A stretch of 20,572 nucleotides of DNA. Source: a virus. The translations under genes were made by a program, and so were the position numbers. Of the stretch, positions 2,342 through 17,078 are shown in pieces. Below the pieces are notes generated by a model that saw only the letters and a list, made by a program, of their open reading frames with translations, was not told the origin of the DNA and did not search any database. How positions within the stretch are numbered: the stretch's first letter is position 1; every line of letters begins with the position of its first letter. Where the stretch lies: IMG/VR virus record IMGVR_UViG_3300024346_000651, positions 1-20,572 of that record; one strand, given 5' to 3'.

Positions 2342-3772
2342 TTACATGAGATTTTTGACCGCGACTCTTCTGTAGTAGCGGTTAGCGTTAACGCGGAGTC
2401 TTCCGAGACCCTGATCAGTGCCTTCAGCGAATGGGTTAGCAACAAGACCATAACGGGTCTTAAAGCCAATCTTGGGCTGGAAGCTGTTCTCACCAACGGC
2501 ACGAACCATTTGGAGGGGAACATATGGGCAATAGAAGAGACCAGCGTCATAAGGTGAAGAACCCTTATAACCTACAACGTAGTACTGGTTGCCAGGAGTT
2601 GCGTTACCTGAGGTCAGGTTAGCAGCATATGGGTCGATGTATACGCGGAACTTGCCCATGAGGGTACCAGCAAAGGTGTTGCCAGTATCATCAACGTTCA
2701 GGTTAGCGTTGAGTGCGGGGGTGTAGTCAAGAACACCAGCCATGGTCAGTGCTGAAGCAACGTCAGCAGAGCACATGATGATGTTGCCCTTTCCGCGACG
2801 AGTTCTTTGTGCGATTGCGTTAGCATCACGCTCGATTTGGAAGAGTAGACCCTTGAACTTCTCAACAGACCAACGACCGTTTGAGTCGATGTCGAGGTCA
2901 AATACGCCAGGAGTTGCTACGTTCTGTACAGCACCTTGCTCAGCAACCTTATAGATGGTTCTGATGACTTCACGGTTGATTTCAGCAAGAATTTCGCTAG
3001 ACAGAATGTTAGCGAGTTCTGCTTCAGCATTCAGACCGTGGATTGCCTTGAGGTCCTGAGCGAGTTCTAGTGAATACTCAGCCTTCAGAGCACGTGACTT
3101 AGCGGTAACGGTGACTTTCTCGATTGAGAAAGCCATCTGGTTGAACGCATTACCGTCAGTTCCATCAAGTGCCTCAGAATCTCCAGTAGGCATACCCTGA
3201 CCGACGTTATATGCGGTTGAGGTAGCGGTTCCTACGGGGTTGAGAAGTGATGGGTTTGAACCAGCCTGAATGGTGGTACCAATACCAGCATTAACATCAG
3301 CAAAGTCGCGGGTAAGAGTAGTATCGAAACCTGCGTCGGTGCCGGAGAATGTGGTATCTGCTTCGTTATAGAATGCCTCAGTTCCACTCTGATTGGTGTA
3401 ACGTGAGCGCATTGCGAAGATGAGTCCAGTAGGACCACTCATTGGTTGAACGCCAGCCAGGTCATAAGCGACCAGGTTGGGCATTGAACGACGGATGAGT
3501 GAAATCAGGACTGGATCGAAACCTGCAGTAGGACCACCTGCGAGTGAACCACCACCGAATCCACCCTGGGCACCAGCAGCATTACCGCTGTTGGTGGGGG
3601 CTTCCATGAGCATATTCATGGAACCATTGTCGAAAGCTGATTGCTCTCTTAAAAATCTTTCTTGGTTTTCGAGCAGGACAGCGGTTACAGCTCTACGATG
3701 AGAATCTTTGATTCCACCCTCGTGGTCGAGGAGAGGTGCCCACTTTTCCTGCAGATGCTCGGATTGGAACAT
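2342..3772 (-). CDS. 23: gp23 major capsid protein
   Basis: 476 residues; T4 gp23 is 521. It forms the hexameric shell of the prohead and is trimmed by gp21 during maturation. The N-terminal 57 residues are the removable delta piece: MLME/A at 54-58 fits the gp21 rule (L or I)-X-E, at the position of the T4 cut after residue 65. Family blocks are RRSMPNLVAYDLAGVQPMSG near 93-112, SRALKAEYSLELAQDLKAIH near 227-246, EILAEINREV near 260, and FQPKIGFKTRYGLVANPFAE near the end. The start at 3772 follows AAGGTAAAAGCAA, a usable ribosome binding site. Codon choice is more GC-rich than in neighbouring genes, as expected for the most abundant virion protein. No NATAAATA lies directly upstream, so it may be read from the gp22 promoter. 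Confidence 0.97.
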   Translation of the reverse strand: MFQSEHLQEKWAPLLDHEGGIKDSHRRAVTAVLLENQERFLREQSAFDNGSMNMLMEAPTNSGNAAGAQGGFGGGSLAGGPTAGFDPVLISLIRRSMPNLVAYDLAGVQPMSGPTGLIFAMRSRYTNQSGTEAFYNEADTTFSGTDAGFDTTLTRDFADVNAGIGTTIQAGSNPSLLNPVGTATSTAYNVGQGMPTGDSEALDGTDGNAFNQMAFSIEKVTVTAKSRALKAEYSLELAQDLKAIHGLNAEAELANILSSEILAEINREVIRTIYKVAEQGAVQNVATPGVFDLDIDSNGRWSVEKFKGLLFQIERDANAIAQRTRRGKGNIIMCSADVASALTMAGVLDYTPALNANLNVDDTGNTFAGTLMGKFRVYIDPYAANLTSGNATPGNQYYVVGYKGSSPYDAGLFYCPYVPLQMVRAVGENSFQPKIGFKTRYGLVANPFAEGTDQGLGRLRVNANRYYRRVAVKNLM

Positions 3773-3829: not shown

Positions 3830-4996
3830 TTATTTGCCGAATGCTGATAAAGTCTTCAGGTAGGCAGACATTGGGCCAGAAATTGATTCTGGTGCATTGT
3901 CTACACCTTCGGATAGACTTTCAGTTCTTGCAGAAGGAGAAACTGCTCTTGATGGGAAATATGATTCCTTCAAGGTCTCCAGTTTTTCACGATATTCTTC
4001 TTCACTTTCAAACTCAACACTTTCGGCAAGTGAAGCGAGCTTGTCTTTCTGAGTGTCTGCTAGACCTTCAGAGACCTGTTCAAAGATTCCATCAGCAACC
4101 GACTCTGCGAGACGCTTGTTGAGTGAAACGTTCTTCTCAATTTGCTCGTTGAGTTTTGTCTCCATTTCATCAAGTTTTTCTACCATGCTCTCAAGCACAT
4201 CATATTTATCTTCAGGGATTGATACATAATGATCTTCAAAAAGACCTCTCATTCCTTGGAGGAATGATTCGGTCATTTCGGTCTTAAGACCTTTTTCAAT
4301 AGCAAGTGCGTTCTCAGCGAACCACTCATCAGCAACATACTCTAGATAAGAATCTACTCTTTCTGAAAGAGCAGTCTTAATTTCTTCTACTTCTTCGAGA
4401 AGAGCAGTAGCATACTTCTCTTCAAGAGTCTCTTGAATTTGAGAAACTCTTGAATTGATAGCAGCTTCAAAGATGGTGCGTGCTTTTTCTTGGAACTCTT
4501 CGGAGAGCTCTTCACCTGATAAGAGAGCATTAACATCTTCGTCGATGTTAAACTCTTCCTTCATTTTCTTCTCCTCATCCTCTTCTTCCTCTTCACCCTC
4601 TTCTTCGTCCTCTTCCTCTTCTTCCTTTTCGCCCTTCTTCTCAGAAGCTTCCGATACAGTATCAGTATCCTCTACTTCAGATTCTTCGATATACTCTTCA
4701 TCTTCAAGATCTTCTTCTTCTTTAACTGCCTTCATTGCTTCAGCAGCTGCAGCACCTTTATTAACAACATCTCTTACTTGCTTAAGAGTTGTGCCAGGTG
4801 TCTTTAGTTTTGCTGAATCATCATCTACTTTGTAGTTTTCTGGTGTTGGACCACCAAGATCTTCCCAACTACCGGTTTGACCTGGTGTTGAGCCTGAAAG
4901 ATGCTGCATTGGATCCGCTGCTTTAGCACCAGCATTAACAGCGGTTCGGGATTGCTTAGTGCCTACTTCCATTTCTTGTAAATCTCCACGAGACAT
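3830..4996 (-). CDS. 22: gp22 prohead core scaffold protein
   Basis: 388 residues; T4 gp22 is 269. It is the main internal scaffold on which gp23 assembles and is destroyed by gp21 before DNA entry. The C-terminal two thirds is a long charged helix resembling T4 gp22, including YVADEWFAENALAIEKGLK (about 220-240) against T4 LAKEWLAENKLAVDKGIK, and ESFLQGMRGLFEDHYVSIPE against the T4 LGGLKELFVEHNVVVPE region. The C-terminal SAYLKTLSAFGK matches the T4 tail SVYAKVASRF in type. Possible gp21 sites are ELSE/E near 163-166 and SLSE/G near 361-363, the latter freeing a 25-residue peptide. The extra N-terminal 150 residues hold a near-duplicate 18-residue motif (13-30 and 71-88) and a Glu/Asp-rich stretch at about 93-148. 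A TATAAATA late promoter lies 39 bases before the start. Confidence 0.93.
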   Translation of the reverse strand: MSRGDLQEMEVGTKQSRTAVNAGAKAADPMQHLSGSTPGQTGSWEDLGGPTPENYKVDDDSAKLKTPGTTLKQVRDVVNKGAAAAEAMKAVKEEEDLEDEEYIEESEVEDTDTVSEASEKKGEKEEEEEDEEEGEEEEEDEEKKMKEEFNIDEDVNALLSGEELSEEFQEKARTIFEAAINSRVSQIQETLEEKYATALLEEVEEIKTALSERVDSYLEYVADEWFAENALAIEKGLKTEMTESFLQGMRGLFEDHYVSIPEDKYDVLESMVEKLDEMETKLNEQIEKNVSLNKRLAESVADGIFEQVSEGLADTQKDKLASLAESVEFESEEEYREKLETLKESYFPSRAVSPSARTESLSEGVDNAPESISGPMSAYLKTLSAFGK

Positions 4997-5052: not shown

Positions 5053-5700
5053 TTACAATGAGTTTAAAAACTCATTGAATAGACTCAATTTGTAGTCTTC
5101 GAGTATACCTTGATCCACATATGTATTAATTTTTTTCTCAAAATTTTCAACTTTTTGTTCAAGGATTCCATTATTCCATACCCACTCAACACCTTCCATA
5201 ATTCCCTGAACGAAAGCATCAGGTGCTGAAGGATCTGCTACAATATCAGCAGCAGTTGCAAGCATAAAATCTTCACCAACTTCTTTATACCCTTTGCTAT
5301 TCTCTCTCAGTGATCCAATTCCACGAGAAGAAACTCCTAAGCAAACACCTTCCTTAAGTAAAGATTCTGCAATCTTACCCATAGGGGTTGAAAGAATTTG
5401 TGCCTTACCAATCCAATTGTTTCCTTCGCAAGTAAGTGAAACAATCTTGTGAGAAACTCTATCAAGATTTACAGTTGGACCATCAGGATGACCTAACTCG
5501 CCAAGAGCACGACCTTTTTCTACATACTGTTCAGTATAACGATTTACTTCCCTTTCCATAATGGAACGAGGATACATACGACCATTACGGTTTACGCATT
5601 CTGCTTGAAGGAAAGGTCCTTGAATGTATAGTTTCTGATTCTTTCCAGAACCTTCAGTTAAAACTTCTACCTTTTCAATCTCTTCTCTGATTAGTTTCAT
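5053..5700 (-). CDS. 21: gp21 prohead maturation protease
   Basis: 215 residues from ATG 5700; T4 gp21 is 212. An upstream in-frame start (5826) is rejected because it would run through the preceding gene, while AGGAGA lies 9 bases before ATG 5700. This serine protease of the herpes-protease-like fold cleaves gp22, the gp23 N-terminus and internal proteins after (L or I)-X-E, then itself. The catalytic His is expected at H71 in ELGHPDGP and the catalytic Ser at S124/S125 in GVSSRGIGSL; the spacing of about 54 matches H85/S140 of T4. Another conserved-looking block is RNGRMYPRSI (38-47). Near the C-terminus GILE/Q (178-182) and GILE/D (198-202) are possible self-cleavage sites. The TAA stop of the preceding gene is one base before this ATG, so translation is probably coupled. 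Confidence 0.94.
   Translation of the reverse strand: MKLIREEIEKVEVLTEGSGKNQKLYIQGPFLQAECVNRNGRMYPRSIMEREVNRYTEQYVEKGRALGELGHPDGPTVNLDRVSHKIVSLTCEGNNWIGKAQILSTPMGKIAESLLKEGVCLGVSSRGIGSLRENSKGYKEVGEDFMLATAADIVADPSAPDAFVQGIMEGVEWVWNNGILEQKVENFEKKINTYVDQGILEDYKLSLFNEFLNSL
5056..5077 (-). other. Perfect hairpin over the last codons of gp21
   Basis: CAATGAGTTT (5056-5065) and AAACTCATTG (5068-5077) are exact reverse complements with two bases between, so the gp21 message ends in a 10-bp stem (effective loop larger) ending one base before the TAA stop. It is followed on the minus strand by an AT-rich run and then by the gp22 late promoter. It could be a weak terminator insulating gp22 or a 3'-end stabiliser. 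The stem has only three G:C pairs and there is no clean T-tract. Confidence 0.4.
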
Positions 5701-6294: not shown

Positions 6295-7608
6295 TTACCT
6301 ACTGATTTCTTCCCAATCTAATGAAGCAAAAACATCAGCACCAGCAGTATCAGACGCAACTACCAGTGTTAATTCATAAGGAGTTCCAGTCAGTCCATTT
6401 CTTTCCAACTGAAACTTAAATAGTGCTTCTTTCAGAATATCTACTGATGCAGCAGATTGATTTGATGATGAGAAGAAACCAGATGCTAATATTCTTCCAC
6501 CACTCACAGTTCCTCCATCAATCTTATATTCCACAGCACTATCAACACCAGCACTCGTCCAAGTGCCACCAGTAGTAGTTGCTGATGCTCTCACTTGCCA
6601 GTTGTATTGTGGTCCATTTCCAGTTCCCATCAGTGAAAGTGCGGTCAAAATTACAATCGCATCTAATCTATCTGGAGAAGTTTTGAGACGAATAGAAAGA
6701 ACTGGATAATAAGTTCCTGCAGGAGAAGGTAAATCTACTGGTGCTGTAATTGGAGTATCTACTGCTTGTTGCAATCCACGCAATTCATAACCACCTTCTG
6801 AAATTACAGTGGAGCAGACCTGCTTTATAGTGCTGCTACTTGTAGTAATTCCAGTGTTGGCAATCTCATATCTTAAAGGAAGAGATGCTGTTGTGATATA
6901 AGTTGATTGAATTAAGTTTGCGTGATGGAATGAGTGACAATGAACAAACTTTCCGTCAATCACAAATCCCATTCGGACTGTACCAAGACCTAACCACTCA
7001 ATATCCATCCAAAGAATTTGTGCTTTGGTAATATCTAATGTAATACCAGAAACACCAGTTCCATCTAATTTATCAATATTCCAATCAGATTGTGCAACTG
7101 AAGTTGAAGTCCCAGTAGATAAACTTCTCTCTACAAAGTAAGGAGTTGTGCCATTAATCTCAAAATACATTCCATTATCAGCACCAAAATATCCAACTCT
7201 TTGTCTAAGATTTTCTTTTGGTGTTGCGGGAACAAAGGTATTTAAAACAAGTAAAGATTTTCCTGGTTGATATGAGAATACTTTTGTAGTCTCTCTAATT
7301 ACAGAACAACCAGCAGTAGTTCCAATACCAATATTGATTAAACCTTGAGTAGTTGCAAATCCAACTGTAGAACCAGTCCCTACAATCAAACTATCCCAAA
7401 GATTATTGTCTCTATATCTGTGAGAACTATCAAAAAGTGTAAGTGGTTGAGATATTCTAGTTCTTCCGAAAGCATCTGGATTTACACTTACTGGAAATCT
7501 ATTGAGATTATCAACAATTTTTCCATCTCTGGTCGCAGCACCAAAAATCTCAAAAAGACTTCTCTCTTGGTTTAAATAATCTTGAGTTGTTATATTCCAC
7601 TGAGCCAT
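6295..7608 (-). CDS. Conserved phage virion protein, role unknown
   Basis: 437 residues. I recognise the family but not a function: proteins with DAFGRTRISQPLTLFDSSHR (45-64) at the front and a middle domain containing YFGADNGMYFEINGTTPYFV, AQSDWNIDKLDGTG and WMDIEWLGLGTVRMGFVIDG occur widely in marine T4-like and other tailed phages and have been labelled structural proteins. The middle domain looks like a beta-sandwich, possibly carbohydrate-binding or fibre-associated. The start ATG 7608 shares its A with the TAA stop of the preceding gene (TAATG), indicating translational coupling. Its place inside the head cluster between the gp67-like gene and gp21 is not part of the T4 set. It could be a head fibre or vertex decoration, which is inference. 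Confidence 0.8.
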   Translation of the reverse strand: MAQWNITTQDYLNQERSLFEIFGAATRDGKIVDNLNRFPVSVNPDAFGRTRISQPLTLFDSSHRYRDNNLWDSLIVGTGSTVGFATTQGLINIGIGTTAGCSVIRETTKVFSYQPGKSLLVLNTFVPATPKENLRQRVGYFGADNGMYFEINGTTPYFVERSLSTGTSTSVAQSDWNIDKLDGTGVSGITLDITKAQILWMDIEWLGLGTVRMGFVIDGKFVHCHSFHHANLIQSTYITTASLPLRYEIANTGITTSSSTIKQVCSTVISEGGYELRGLQQAVDTPITAPVDLPSPAGTYYPVLSIRLKTSPDRLDAIVILTALSLMGTGNGPQYNWQVRASATTTGGTWTSAGVDSAVEYKIDGGTVSGGRILASGFFSSSNQSAASVDILKEALFKFQLERNGLTGTPYELTLVVASDTAGADVFASLDWEEISR

Positions 7609-7928
7609 TAATCAATCCATTCCAACTTTGATGGGTGGTATCTTTTTGCGTTTTTAATATTTAAATTCTTTTCAACTACAGGATAAATTTGATGAACAAC
7701 TGCTCCAGGATACTCGGTTTGAAGTTGCTCACCAAGTTCTCTAGTTGAAGGAATTCCATTTTTAGTAACTAATTCCATTCTATACAAACTCCCATTCCAC
7801 ATAATATCGGCAACATATTCTTCACCGACTTGTTGTGGTTGTTCTTGCTGAGAGTTTATATAGAGATTTCCTGTAAAATCTCCAGCAATATTAACCGATT
7901 CTGAGATAAATTGCTTGAAAGATTTCAT
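7608..7928 (-). CDS. Putative internal head protein with capsid-targeting-like N-terminus
   Basis: 106 residues from ATG 7928; an in-frame upstream start (7958) would overlap the preceding gene and is not preferred. AGAGGA precedes the start. The N-terminus MKSFKQFISE/S resembles the capsid-targeting peptide of T4 internal proteins (MKTYQEFIAE as I recall), and I-S-E fits the gp21 cleavage rule. Packaging inside the prohead, with removal of the first ten residues, is therefore inferred. The remainder is a small domain with W44-N-G-x-x-Y, P60-S-x-x-E-L, LQ and YP (42-83), which recurs in the 572-aa protein at 15205-16923 (its residues 410-443). It occupies the T4 gp68 position, but I cannot claim homology to gp68. 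It is one base from the gp67-like stop and overlaps the next start by one base. Confidence 0.75.
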   Translation of the reverse strand: MKSFKQFISESVNIAGDFTGNLYINSQQEQPQQVGEEYVADIMWNGSLYRMELVTKNGIPSTRELGEQLQTEYPGAVVHQIYPVVEKNLNIKNAKRYHPSKLEWID

Positions 7929-7929
7929 T

Positions 7930-8091
7930 TCATTCCTCTTCTTGTGATCCTTGATCAAACATACTTACTGCAACTTCAGGTCTAAACTCATCAACCTTTT
8001 CCGCTGCTTTTGTAAATAGTAAATCTTTAATCTTATCACTAATCTCAGATGGAGGTGAATCAGATACAATCATGTCCATTAAATCATCCAT
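7930..8091 (-). CDS. 67: gp67-like prohead core protein
   Basis: 53 residues; T4 gp67 is 80. gp67 is a small acidic component of the prohead core, needed for correct head shape and later degraded by gp21. The sequence begins MDDLMDMIVSD and continues with an amphipathic helix (KIKDLLFTKAAEKVDEFRPEV) and an acidic end GSQEEE. This follows the T4 pattern MEGLIEAI..., then LIKEEKIAIARNFL, then a much longer acidic tail. The gene sits directly after gp20, exactly where gene 67 lies in T4, with an exact late promoter 30 bases upstream. The acidic tail is far shorter than in T4. The stop at 7930 leaves one base before the next ATG. Confidence 0.65.
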   Translation of the reverse strand: MDDLMDMIVSDSPPSEISDKIKDLLFTKAAEKVDEFRPEVAVSMFDQGSQEEE

Positions 8092-13061: not shown

Positions 13062-14707
13062 TACATATATTCCCACATGTATGAACGGTCTCCATATTCA
13101 TCAACATACCATCTGTCGCCATCATCATCAATAAAACTACTTTCATCCAATCCATCAGATATAAATCCAAATGGAGACATATCTTGTTCTATTTGATTTT
13201 TTTGCTCCTCATATAGACGTTTTCTTACATCTTGATCGGTAAGTTCTTTGAAGTAATCCTGAGCAACTAACCAAGCATATATCACTAAGCACATGGCCAA
13301 GTCATCATTACATCCCTCTTCCGCTTCAAATGAGTTATGCTTTTGAATAAAAGTAGTCAACTCAGAGATTATTTCATAATCATTTAAATATAACTTGTCC
13401 TCCTCAATCATGGTTTTTAGATTGAGGCATCCAACTTTTTTAACTGTTTTGGACATCTTAACACCAAGTTGCGTTTTCTTTCCAGAAAATCCTTGACCAA
13501 CTATCTGACCTGCTCTACCTCTCATAGAACACATAAGAAGATTATTATATTCCAGGTCATACTGAAGAATACTTGCTACTTGATCTCCAACATCATTTAC
13601 TTCACATAAAATATATGCACTGTTATATGCTGTTGCTGCTTCGTGAATTATGCTCGGAAAAAGCATTGGTTTTATTTCATTATTTCGATATTTTGCAACT
13701 ACCCTATGTGGAAATTGTGTGATATCAACAATAGCAAATGCAGAATAATCATTTCCAACACCTCTAGCAACATCTACTGTTATTAAGTAATCATGATCTT
13801 CTTCAGGATCAACATAAACATCTAAACCAGCACTACGTGTCTTTGGATGATCGTAGACAAGGTTTCTAAGTTTACTTGGTGCAATGAGAGTATCTACTGA
13901 ACCTAAAAATTCACATTCAAATTCTACCTTAAATTGTTGATCACTTGTATTAGCGATGGTTTGTTTTTTCCATTCCTCATCTCGGCCAGGAACTTCTGAC
14001 CAATGAACATCAGTAAAAATATATTCATTCTTACCCTTTTCGGCATCATGCCACATTCGGTAGAAGTGATTCATACCGTGTGGAGTTGAAACTATAATAA
14101 CCTTAGTTTGTTTACCGGAAGTAATTGTTGGATATACTGATGCGAAGAAAGAGTCTGCAATATGGTTTGGGACGAAAGCAAATTCGTCCAAGAATAGAAT
14201 GTTAAATGACATTCCTCGGACAGCAGATGCTGATGTGGATGCCGCTAAAATCTTAGAACCATTTTCTAATTCAAGAGATCCCTTATTCCAAGAAACAATC
14301 CCCTGTTGCATCCATTTAGGAAGATTTTCATAAGCAGTCTGCAATCTATCCAAAAGTTCTCTTGCCGTCGCTGCTTTGTTGGCAAGAATACCAATATTTA
14401 CATTATCATTAAAAACTGCATAATGAAGAAGGAAAGAAACTACCGTTGTTGACTTTCCAGTCTGACGAGGCATCTTACAGATATTAAATCTATGTTCATG
14501 AAACCTTCTTACTAACTTTTCTTGGAATGGATACATCTGGAAAGACTGCAATCCATGGTCTAGAGTTACAATCTTTACGTAATTTTTGGCAAAATAAACC
14601 GGGTCATCTTTACACTTAACAAACTCTAGAACTTGTTCTTGTGTAAATTCAATTGGCGTATTTGCCTTCTTGAGCAAAGGGTTGCCCAAATAAACATCAT
14701 TAGACAT
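13061..14707 (-). CDS. 17: gp17 large terminase (packaging ATPase and nuclease)
   Basis: 548 residues from ATG 14707; T4 gp17 is 610. It pumps DNA into the prohead through gp20 and cuts the concatemer. The ATPase has Walker A PRQTGKST (about 80-87), Walker B LFLDEF (171-176) and coupling motif STPHG (207-211). The RNase H-like nuclease has TVDVARG (D312), CEVNDVGD (E369) and CNDDLAM (D468/D469), so all catalytic acidic residues are present. Two in-frame ATGs exist, at 14713 and 14707. GAGGA lies 7 bases before 14707 but only one base before 14713, so the second is preferred. That site and the start lie inside the end of the HNH endonuclease gene (overlap 8 bases). The acidic Asp/Tyr/Trp C-terminus (about 518-548) runs up to a TAATG overlap with the zinc-ribbon gene. 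Confidence 0.97.
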   Translation of the reverse strand: MSNDVYLGNPLLKKANTPIEFTQEQVLEFVKCKDDPVYFAKNYVKIVTLDHGLQSFQMYPFQEKLVRRFHEHRFNICKMPRQTGKSTTVVSFLLHYAVFNDNVNIGILANKAATARELLDRLQTAYENLPKWMQQGIVSWNKGSLELENGSKILAASTSASAVRGMSFNILFLDEFAFVPNHIADSFFASVYPTITSGKQTKVIIVSTPHGMNHFYRMWHDAEKGKNEYIFTDVHWSEVPGRDEEWKKQTIANTSDQQFKVEFECEFLGSVDTLIAPSKLRNLVYDHPKTRSAGLDVYVDPEEDHDYLITVDVARGVGNDYSAFAIVDITQFPHRVVAKYRNNEIKPMLFPSIIHEAATAYNSAYILCEVNDVGDQVASILQYDLEYNNLLMCSMRGRAGQIVGQGFSGKKTQLGVKMSKTVKKVGCLNLKTMIEEDKLYLNDYEIISELTTFIQKHNSFEAEEGCNDDLAMCLVIYAWLVAQDYFKELTDQDVRKRLYEEQKNQIEQDMSPFGFISDGLDESSFIDDDGDRWYVDEYGDRSYMWEYM

Positions 14708-15185
14708 ACTCATATCCTCTATCTTTCCAATTTTTCATTCTATAGTGCAAACACTGTAATGATATATTTAATTGTTTTGATGCATCAGTTAAAGATTCAT
14801 AAACAATGTCTTTAATTTTTATTTTCTTATTAAAGTGACTATTATTACTTCCTGGAATGTTATTGCCAAATCTTCTACCTTTTAATTTTTCGCTTCTTTT
14901 TTTCTTTGTCTCTTCACTTTGTTTTTTTCCAGTATTATGTTCTACTGCTTTCATTAAATTTTTCATGTAGTATTCATCTCCGTGCCATACTTTTTTGTGA
15001 AATTCTGGACTGCAGACATACAAATGTTCAGGTATGTCTCTTCCACCCTCACTTCTTGGGGGAAAATGATGAACATGCATTCCTACCATTTGTTCTTTAG
15101 TTAGTCCCCAATGTTTCCTGGCAATATTTCTTACAACTACCGGGTTTAACCTTTCTTTCGGAACTTTTATTATTGCAAAACTCAT
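14700..15185 (-). CDS. HNH homing endonuclease with NUMOD repeats
   Basis: 161 residues. It is a free-standing homing endonuclease that would cut an empty allele in a co-infecting phage and be copied in by repair. The HNH core is at about 37-68: HVHHFPPRSEGGRDIPEHLY then EFHKKVWH. The usual Asn of PENL is His here (H54). Next come NUMOD3-type segments (GKKQSEETKKKRSEKLKGRR, then PGSNNSHF, about 86-118). A C-terminal NUMOD1/helix-turn-helix segment follows (IVYESLTDASKQLNISLQCLHYRM, 127-150), presumably contacting the target. Such enzymes are parasites rather than virion parts. It splits the packaging genes upstream of gp17, and its last codons encode the gp17 ribosome binding site. AAGG precedes its start. 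All domains look intact; activity is inferred. Confidence 0.9.
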   Translation of the reverse strand: MSFAIIKVPKERLNPVVVRNIARKHWGLTKEQMVGMHVHHFPPRSEGGRDIPEHLYVCSPEFHKKVWHGDEYYMKNLMKAVEHNTGKKQSEETKKKRSEKLKGRRFGNNIPGSNNSHFNKKIKIKDIVYESLTDASKQLNISLQCLHYRMKNWKDRGYEYV

Positions 15186-15204: not shown

Positions 15205-16923
15205 TTAATTACAATTCCATCTACGGAGTGCTTTGTTGATATTGCTATCAGGGTCTCTTGCAGTTTTTGCACTTGTCAGTTTAGACTTCATGCCCCTCAT
15301 ACGGCGGCAAAATGACTTACGACGCTCTGCCCTTTTACCTGATGGATTTTTCTCAGTAACTGCAGTTTGTAACTTTGAACCTGGATTTTCTCTACGATAT
15401 GCTTTTACTGCAGCAGGACTTAATCCATCAGTCTTATCTTGCCTGTTTACCTTTTGCCAATCTTCACTCATAGGTTTTACATAATTTTTATTTGGACCAG
15501 ACTTTGCAAAACTACCTCCTTGAGGTCCAACTGCTTGAATTAGAGGAGCGCCGGGTTGAATTTCTGAGACATAGTGGTTAACTAATCTACAATCAGGATA
15601 GACTTTCTGTAGTTCAGCAGTCAGTTCAGATCTAGAAGGCATCTTAGTCTGAGGGAAAAACATCTTAACACCATAATACTTTCCTCTCCAAGAAAGAGTA
15701 ATTGCAATCACATTTCCAGTTTGTGCTTGAAGCCTAGATGCCTCATCAATTTGAGATTTAAAACCTTTAATTGGTTCTGGTTTAATCAGATCTACAACTT
15801 CTGCAAATGTATTCCCATCAGCATCTTCAATGGTAACATCTTCTGCTTTTACACATCTATTATATTTTTTTCCAAATAATGTCTGTGTTCCTTTCTTTTT
15901 ATATCCAGGCCAACATTTCATTTCTTCAAATGATGATTGTTCTTCCATTTCACCACTATCAATATAATCTGCGGCAGTATCAATATAATCTGCTGCTTTG
16001 GTTATTTTTGATTGAACCCATGCTTCAAGATCTCCTTCACCCATTTCAACTTTTGAACGAAGTCTTTTTACCGCATCTTCAATGGTCTTCAACTCAGATC
16101 TAGCCATTGAATATTCTTCATCCTTTACGGAAACCTTATCCCACACTTTACCACCATAGGTACATTCTGATCTAGTTTCCCTCTTTTTGCACATTGGGCA
16201 ATATCTTTCTTCTTCGTGCATATGGGTCTCCTCCGTTTTAGTTCCCCAGTTTGCAGCACCAACTTTACGACACTTCACTAATGCTCCTGAAGCATAAGCA
16301 CTAGGCCAAACCGAGTATCTTGACTTTACCTTATGATAGCAAGCATCCTTTTTACCACTACCCTTACCTGGTTTATCTTTGACTTCTTGTAGGTCCATTT
16401 CTTCAGTTCTTACGTTGGTTGGTTTTGCTCCACCAGTCTTTTCTGGTTGATTTGGATCTAATCTATTTTTTCTTTTTCTTGCGGATTCTTCCTCATCCTT
16501 AGAGAGTGCTCTTTTCATCTTAGAACTTCCACATTTTGGTGTAGAAGTTTGTCCTGGTTGCCGAGCACATGGTTTTCCCGCCCATTTTCCACCAAGTTGA
16601 ACCCACCCCTTCTTTCCATCAGAGGACTTAGATTTATTAAACCAGTCGCGGAGACCTTCATCTCCGGATTTAGTTTCTTCTTTTACATCTTTAAACTTTT
16701 TATGATGCTTTTTAGCATCTGCTTCCATCTTCTTCAAGCGAGTATAATAGTCTGGGATTTCATCAAGATGCTGAAGAGCAATATCTCTTGCTAAATCATG
16801 ATCCTTAGTGTGTTCATGTTCAATTGGTTCTCCCATATCAAGTTGCTTTTGTATGAAAGAAACATCAAGACGATGCTTCCTTGCAATTTGTTCAACTGTT
16901 TTGTGGGACTTAAGTTTGGGCAT
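15205..16923 (-). CDS. Mosaic protein of short Cys-pair modules, function unknown
   Basis: 572 residues from ATG 16923, which overlaps the stop of the preceding gene (TGATG); a GTG one codon earlier is possible. Modules in order are: helical N-terminus TVEQIARKHRLDVSFIQKQL to DYYTRLKK (9-65; resembles a phage domain of unknown function); GLRDWFNKSKSSDGKKGWV with C119/C131 (90-135); KKDACYHKVKSRYSVWPSAY with C195/C218 (191-226); CPMC plus C254 (242-254); a helical part with a duplicated AADYID (310-322); CWPGYKKKGT to C357 (337-358); a WxGxYY/PSRSEL/YP domain (410-450) also found in the 106-aa protein at 7608-7928; and a basic C-terminus AYRRENPGSKLQTAVTEK with KRAERRKSFCRRM and RRWNC (508-571). 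I recall these motifs as separate small proteins in marine phages. It is strongly basic overall, so nucleic-acid binding or an internal virion role is possible. No enzyme motif is seen. Confidence 0.85.
   Translation of the reverse strand: MPKLKSHKTVEQIARKHRLDVSFIQKQLDMGEPIEHEHTKDHDLARDIALQHLDEIPDYYTRLKKMEADAKKHHKKFKDVKEETKSGDEGLRDWFNKSKSSDGKKGWVQLGGKWAGKPCARQPGQTSTPKCGSSKMKRALSKDEEESARKRKNRLDPNQPEKTGGAKPTNVRTEEMDLQEVKDKPGKGSGKKDACYHKVKSRYSVWPSAYASGALVKCRKVGAANWGTKTEETHMHEEERYCPMCKKRETRSECTYGGKVWDKVSVKDEEYSMARSELKTIEDAVKRLRSKVEMGEGDLEAWVQSKITKAADYIDTAADYIDSGEMEEQSSFEEMKCWPGYKKKGTQTLFGKKYNRCVKAEDVTIEDADGNTFAEVVDLIKPEPIKGFKSQIDEASRLQAQTGNVIAITLSWRGKYYGVKMFFPQTKMPSRSELTAELQKVYPDCRLVNHYVSEIQPGAPLIQAVGPQGGSFAKSGPNKNYVKPMSEDWQKVNRQDKTDGLSPAAVKAYRRENPGSKLQTAVTEKNPSGKRAERRKSFCRRMRGMKSKLTSAKTARDPDSNINKALRRWNCN
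15957..15998 (-). repeat. 21-base tandem duplication in the mosaic gene
   Basis: Two adjacent 21-base units (15957-15977, 15978-15998) differ at only three positions, all near the end of the unit, and encode KAADYID TAADYID. The reading frame is kept, so it is a small in-frame expansion, probably by replication slippage. Confidence 0.7.
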
Positions 16924-17078
16924 CACTCAACTGGTTTTGATTTAGTTTCTTCACCTTTTGCTCTTTTGGATCTACCTGCACAGTGTGCTTTTTGTGAAAA
17001 TCCTTTTGGATTGGAGCAATCAATACTCTTTTTATATTTATTGCTCCAGTCTTCTTGAAACTGTTTAAACGTTTTCAT
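16923..17078 (-). CDS. 51-aa Cys-pair protein
   Basis: Too short for most gene finders, but well supported by context. ATG 17078 lies inside the end of gp16 (overlap 14 bases), and its TGA stop overlaps the ATG of the 572-aa gene (TGATG), so it is a coupled cistron. The sequence starts MKTFKQFQEDW, sharing the MK(S/T)FKQF start with the protein at 7608-7928. It then carries C21-SNPKGFSQKAH-C33 followed by a basic AGRSKRAKG. The C-x11-C spacing equals that of the first Cys pair (C119/C131) in the 572-aa neighbour. I recall the phrase NPKGFSQKAHC from other marine phage proteins but know no function. The I/L-X-E protease site seen in the 106-aa protein is not present; FQE/D is a looser possibility. 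Confidence 0.78.
   Translation of the reverse strand: MKTFKQFQEDWSNKYKKSIDCSNPKGFSQKAHCAGRSKRAKGEETKSKPVE

Follow-up and report, generated by a model that had tools for sequence, protein, structure and literature searches.

A predicted capsid-targeting sequence and prohead-protease site on a conserved small protein of T4-like cyanophages

A 106-amino-acid protein encoded among the late structural genes of an uncultured T4-like cyanophage begins with a predicted capsid-targeting sequence (CTS) that ends at a predicted cleavage site for the prohead protease gp21. The open reading frame (ORF; positions 7608..7928, minus strand) lies in a window of 20,572 nucleotides, the whole stretch of DNA that was analysed, from IMG/VR virus record IMGVR_UViG_3300024346_000651. 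Residues 1–10, MKSFKQFISE (7899..7928, minus strand), are assigned as a CTS from their match to T4 ipII and ipIII, a motif census and conservation. The cut is predicted between E10 and S11 (I-x-E/S; 7896..7901, minus strand) from a published motif rule (PMC9026906) and from the LxE/[AST] sites in gp23 of related phages, and would leave a mature protein of 96 amino acids (11.0 kDa, pI 5.07). We consider it probable that this protein is cargo of the prohead core: through the aromatic residues at positions 4 and 7 of a T4-type CTS it would dock onto the scaffold core (gp22), and gp21 would cut after I8-S9-E10, freeing the 96-residue protein in the maturing head. We infer that the protein docks, is cleaved, stays with the DNA and is ejected, and see in it one presumptive member of a modular, CTS-addressed and gp21-processed head cargo.

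The ORF is a real and conserved gene, given its match to PHROG_1742 (4.4e-42), a family without assigned function, and the presence of a gene of this type in 137 cyanophage records and of the family in 334 IMG/VR loci. The frame is open, starts with MKSFKQFISES and has GAGGA 5′ of its ATG. A Pfam search with the protein gave no match, and a sequence search of the PDB returned nothing useful. AlphaFold2, run with sequences of the window and the IMG/VR loci only, predicts a disordered leader and tail around a folded core with a pLDDT of about 83–90 over most of its length (residues 35–85, beta-beta-alpha-beta; 7674..7826, minus strand).

Late structural genes are clustered on the minus strand of the window, in the order gp16, a 51-amino-acid ORF, a 573-amino-acid phrog_727 protein, an endonuclease-like ORF, gp17, gp18, gp19, gp20, a 53-amino-acid protein, the 106-amino-acid protein, a phrog_1645 protein, DUF7243, gp21, gp22 and gp23; the T4 names gp17–gp20 were assigned from gene order and sequence matches. 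The 53-amino-acid protein (phrog_14164/2088; 7930..8091, minus strand), gp67-like by position only, is separated by 1 nucleotide from the start of the 106-amino-acid gene, the stop of which overlaps the start of the phrog_1645 gene (TAATG). The latter encodes a 437-amino-acid virion structural protein (6295..7608, minus strand), a relative of which was detected in S-SZBM1 virions. The preliminary description had placed the gene between those for the core protein and the protease; it does lie between gp20 with the 53-amino-acid gene and gp21, but two genes intervene before gp21. The phage also encodes the proposed partners: gp21 (Peptidase_S77, 3.8e-37; 5053..5697, minus strand) as the expected processing enzyme, gp22 (T4_CASP domain match; 3830..4996, minus strand) as the expected docking partner of the CTS, and a cleavable gp23, the predicted gp21 site of which (LME57/A; 3602..3604, minus strand) serves as an internal reference for the cut-site rule. 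Placement in the core operon, beside the gp67-like gene and gp21, is found in 72 of 86 loci, namely in the window and those closely related to it. Most isolates instead have the family gene in the gp16–gp17 interval. Between the phrog_727 gene and gp17, a 161-amino-acid ORF (14700–15185, minus strand) matches the I-TevI DNA-binding domain and is probably a homing-endonuclease insertion.

T4 ipII and ipIII both begin with exactly the peptide, MKTYQEFIAE, that had been given as a parallel in the preliminary description, and the I-x-E cleavage site proposed there is present as I8-S9-E10. Among 104 unique family members, position 4 is F or Y and position 7 is F in every case (104/104 each), while I, L or M at position 8 and E at position 10 each occur in 103; the M8 of some members departs from the strict L/I of the gp21 rule. 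M1, F7 and E10 are the same throughout a set of 17 diverse members, in which positions 5 and 6 vary. Because the whole family is conserved, this conservation is weak evidence by itself. The conserved positions are those that mutations in the CTS of IPIII link to targeting (residues 4 and 7) and processing (residues 8 and 10); the first ten residues of T4 IPIII suffice for packaging, and T4 gp21 cuts after L/I-x-E (PMC9026906). The propeptide site of gp23 in related phages reads LxE/[AST], which places the E/S of the 106-amino-acid protein within the expected specificity of gp21.

Controls for chance were made with the tag written as a DNA pattern, ATGAARWSNTWYNNNNNNTWYNTNNNNGAR, roughly MK[ST][FY]xx[FY][FILMV]xE. 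Across 21 complete phage records, together about 3.3 Mb, the pattern occurs at 38 places, versus 1 for the reversed pattern. In 2.4 Mb, all 112 unique protein occurrences fall within 50 codons of the start of an open frame, none is internal, and permuted motifs occur 0–1 times. A chance N-terminus is rejected by these reversed, permuted and internal-position controls. T4, as a positive control, gave three matches: ipII, ipIII and the uncharacterised 54-amino-acid gp61.1. No match was found in S-PM2, lambda or T7, and Pelagibacter phage HTVC008M gave a single weak one (MKHYPLYLIE).

Crude grouping of these tag-led proteins yields 28 clusters, some of them mutually related; by a conservative count, at least about 20 are unrelated. 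In S-SCSM1 the tag occurs on two proteins only, the orthologue of the 106-amino-acid protein (SSCSM1_30) and the NMNAT SSCSM1_91. The latter belongs to a group of NMNAT/cytidylyltransferases with a conserved CTS-like N-terminus (L084, 38819–40048, and loci L088–L135), with starts such as MKSFLQFLKE/A in S-SCSM1 and MRFRQFIIE/A in S-SZBM1. Nearly all of the 41 listed NMNAT N-termini fit the CTS pattern, and the exceptions replace F4 by L or have K or N at residue 3. NMNAT was found in S-SCSM1 virions (PMC9602691) and a homologue in those of S-SZBM1 (PMC9146016); NMNAT-like enzymes turn up repeatedly among the virion proteins of cyanophages, and those who reported them were unable to separate packaging from contamination (PMC9602691, PMC10665884). 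The conserved CTS-like N-terminus could explain this repeated detection. Two other proteins labelled as virion proteins in S-SCSM1 were noted: SSCSM1_97 (L084, 43121–43306; 61 amino acids) resembles the N-arm of gp23 (GPTAGFDP), and SSCSM1_93 (L084, 41626–41835; 69 amino acids) has a CTS-like C-terminal end, KRTFKEFLEYIE.

Further carriers include DUF6321 proteins and SSZBM1_192, encoded directly upstream of SSZBM1_191, the S-SZBM1 counterpart of the 106-amino-acid protein. Four consecutive CTS-led genes, mostly for basic proteins, lie within about 2 kb (L177 and G005, 79.7–81.6 kb), reminiscent of the ipII/ipIII pair of T4. A 412-amino-acid CTS-led basic protein of phage DSL-LC03 (L154, 1501), with a hydrophobic segment rich in glycine and alanine, is possibly a membrane-active ejection protein. 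In a 220-amino-acid protein (L294, 56) the tag runs into a PTN sequence (MKTFKNFILE/TPTNHGN) like that after the cut in gp23. T4 gp61.1 (AF158101, 18966–19130; L160), with the full CTS pattern (MKTFKEFIKE/D), adjoins 61.2 (adfA), which is reported to counter DarTG (PMC9391042), and is a candidate for an unrecognised internal protein of T4. In the vibriophage KVP40, a 215-amino-acid protein (39187; L351) that begins MKQFCNFLAE/V and resembles a SAM-dependent methyltransferase may be a CTS-led enzyme.

The core of the 106-amino-acid protein is itself a module that occurs elsewhere. By hhalign (98.4%, E 6e-15) it shares homology with a module inside the phrog_727 proteins, and a fold search of BFVD finds those of S-SCSM1 and S-CAM9; independent support comes from phrog_1742, which also matches, over the core, a CTS-led protein of 82 amino acids in Sf-FS3. 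In the window the module (15529..15744, minus strand) lies behind IDE395/A inside the 573-amino-acid phrog_727/DUF6321 protein (15205..16926, minus strand), a basic multi-module protein (pI 9.4) related to the S-SCSM1 virion protein SSCSM1_29. Directly before the core module of the multi-module proteins, [ILVMF]-x-E is present in 32 of 32 non-redundant, unrelated contexts (34 listed rows minus two misregistered matches to the 106-amino-acid family itself) and is mostly followed by A or S, and the sequence farther upstream is random. The DUF6321 module has the same tendency: in 43 of 67 contexts, its most frequent register has E. Examples are FAEFIYE/GAAW inside a protein and MKTYNDFITE/VAAW on a free one. 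In one locus (L229) the phrog_727 protein comes in two pieces, of 578 and 240 amino acids, the second of which begins MKTFSQFITE/A, and in its sister (L231) the protein is continuous and has no such CTS; in both, a gene for a 151-amino-acid CTS-led protein comes next, then the 106-amino-acid family gene. These comparisons suggest a modular system in which small domains would be either separate and CTS-led or strung together with [ILVM]-x-E before the modules and cut apart by gp21. The window also encodes a basic 51-amino-acid protein, MKTFKQFQE/DWSNKYKK (16923..17078, minus strand), the N-terminus of which leads a WSxKYKKSIDC module; we rejected this N-terminus as a full CTS and class it as CTS-like only, as its I/L-x-E register (FQE/D) lacks one residue.

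Motif statistics, the T4 controls, the occurrence of NMNAT in virions, the gp21-like sites and the fission of a gene with gain of a CTS together make a CTS and gp21 site on the 106-amino-acid protein a strongly supported reading by comparison. Of the earlier proposal that the protein is packaged in the prohead and trimmed to 96 residues, it is this part that is supported, whereas presence in the mature virion finds no report so far in two published cyanophage proteomes. In the S-SCSM1 record SSCSM1_30 is ‘hypothetical’ without a virion label, and its neighbours 29 and 31 are labelled ‘virion protein’; the record carries 48 such labels against 45 proteins identified by mass spectrometry (MS) (PMC9602691), so that a label stands for MS evidence only by inference. 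SSZBM1_191 is not among the 30 proteins detected in S-SZBM1 virions, whereas SSZBM1_190 is (PMC9146016); usable tryptic peptides of SSZBM1_191 exist, and the protein is short. Two further proteins, SSZBM1_192 (CTS-led) and SSZBM1_194 (multi-module), are missing as well, so the depth of that proteome is limited. Packaging and retention are plausible, set against these two negative proteomes. Absence from both would be explained by a protein that acts only in the core, entering by its CTS and being cut by gp21, then, as happens to most of the scaffold in T4, digested or lost no later than the packaging of the DNA, and never injected. Such an assembly factor is possible but clearly less likely than cargo: its acidity and its position in the core operon beside the gp67-like gene and gp21 would suit it, but the module recurs in SSCSM1_29, which is virion-labelled in S-SCSM1, and a compact folded core is unlike a scaffold that is cleaved to fragments. 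The common pairing with phrog_1645, adjacent in 82 of 86 loci and with overlapping stop and start in the window, leaves room for an assembly role, and the protein might be a partner or chaperone of its neighbour with an N-terminus that merely resembles a CTS. We regard this as unlikely: S-SCSM1 and S-SKS1 keep the 106-amino-acid gene with a different downstream protein of about 250 amino acids, relatives of phrog_1645 occur in phages not listed with the gene (for example, S-WAM2 and Puniceispirillum phage HMO-2011), and the same N-terminus on unrelated proteins is left unexplained.

If injected, the protein might act in host takeover or anti-defence, as the preliminary description suggested. 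A Foldseek search of the PDB gave T7 Gp2 as the best match (4lk0_M; probability 0.98, TM 0.70 by target, E 0.24) and the RNA-polymerase-interacting RNAP-epsilon YkzG at ranks 6 and 23, with E-values (0.24–0.48) that are not significant; YkzG ranked 2 with an independent model of the phrog_727 module, but Gp2 was outside its top 50. These matches are a weak lead to a Gp2/RNAP-epsilon-like fold. A protein that, once injected, inhibits or modulates the RNA polymerase of the host as infection begins, much as T4 Alt does, would refine the cargo reading rather than exclude it, and we think it improbable: there is no sequence homology to Gp2 (hhalign probability 0.07%), and beta-beta-alpha-beta is a small, common fold that ribosomal protein LX also matches. 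Equally doubtful is the full combination in which a large modular CTS-addressed cargo has its effector domains freed by gp21 and the injected 106-amino-acid domain uses a Gp2-like fold to bind the RNA polymerase of the host. Separately, sequence comparison with a 46-amino-acid protein of S-SCSM1 that bears the annotation ‘RNA polymerase inhibitor’ revealed no homology.

Because many unrelated cyanophage proteins are tagged, including an enzyme found in virions, these phages probably carry a larger ready-made protein cargo than has been recognised. In the open-access literature, to which our search was confined (subscription journals lay outside it), we found no description of cyanophage CTSs. 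A CTS and gp21 site on NMNAT-like enzymes would provide a specific and simply testable loading mechanism, and the motif lists, from sequence alone, proteins that T4-like phages, cyanophages included, might inject, T4 gp61.1 among them. The modular arrangement further suggests that internal proteins could be made by prohead-protease processing of polyproteins.

Among known systems, T7 Gp2 and YkzG share with the 106-amino-acid protein the predicted beta-beta-alpha-beta fold, at a fold-match E-value that is not significant, but not the sequence. The phrog_727/DUF6321 proteins such as SSCSM1_29 hold a module homologous to its core behind [ILVM]xE and are encoded by the adjacent gene in isolates, but are multi-module, basic and mostly without an N-terminal CTS. 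The virion NMNAT/cytidylyltransferase (phrog_395) has the same CTS-like leader in the same phages, but is an MS-detected enzyme of about 400 amino acids with an unrelated domain. T4 IPII and IPIII have no homology to the protein beyond the N-terminus, nor is it homologous to IPI, and a tblastn search to E ≤ 10 gives cyanophage records only. Whereas internal proteins of T4 are basic, the mature product is acidic; its family is conserved in many cyanophages, has no virion report so far, and its domain is also a polyprotein module. What the protein shares with IPII and IPIII is a motif of ten residues at the N-terminus, alike in its key positions and in ending with I-x-E, in a phage that has gp21, gp22 and gp23 and the relatives of which also carry CTS-led genes in tandem.
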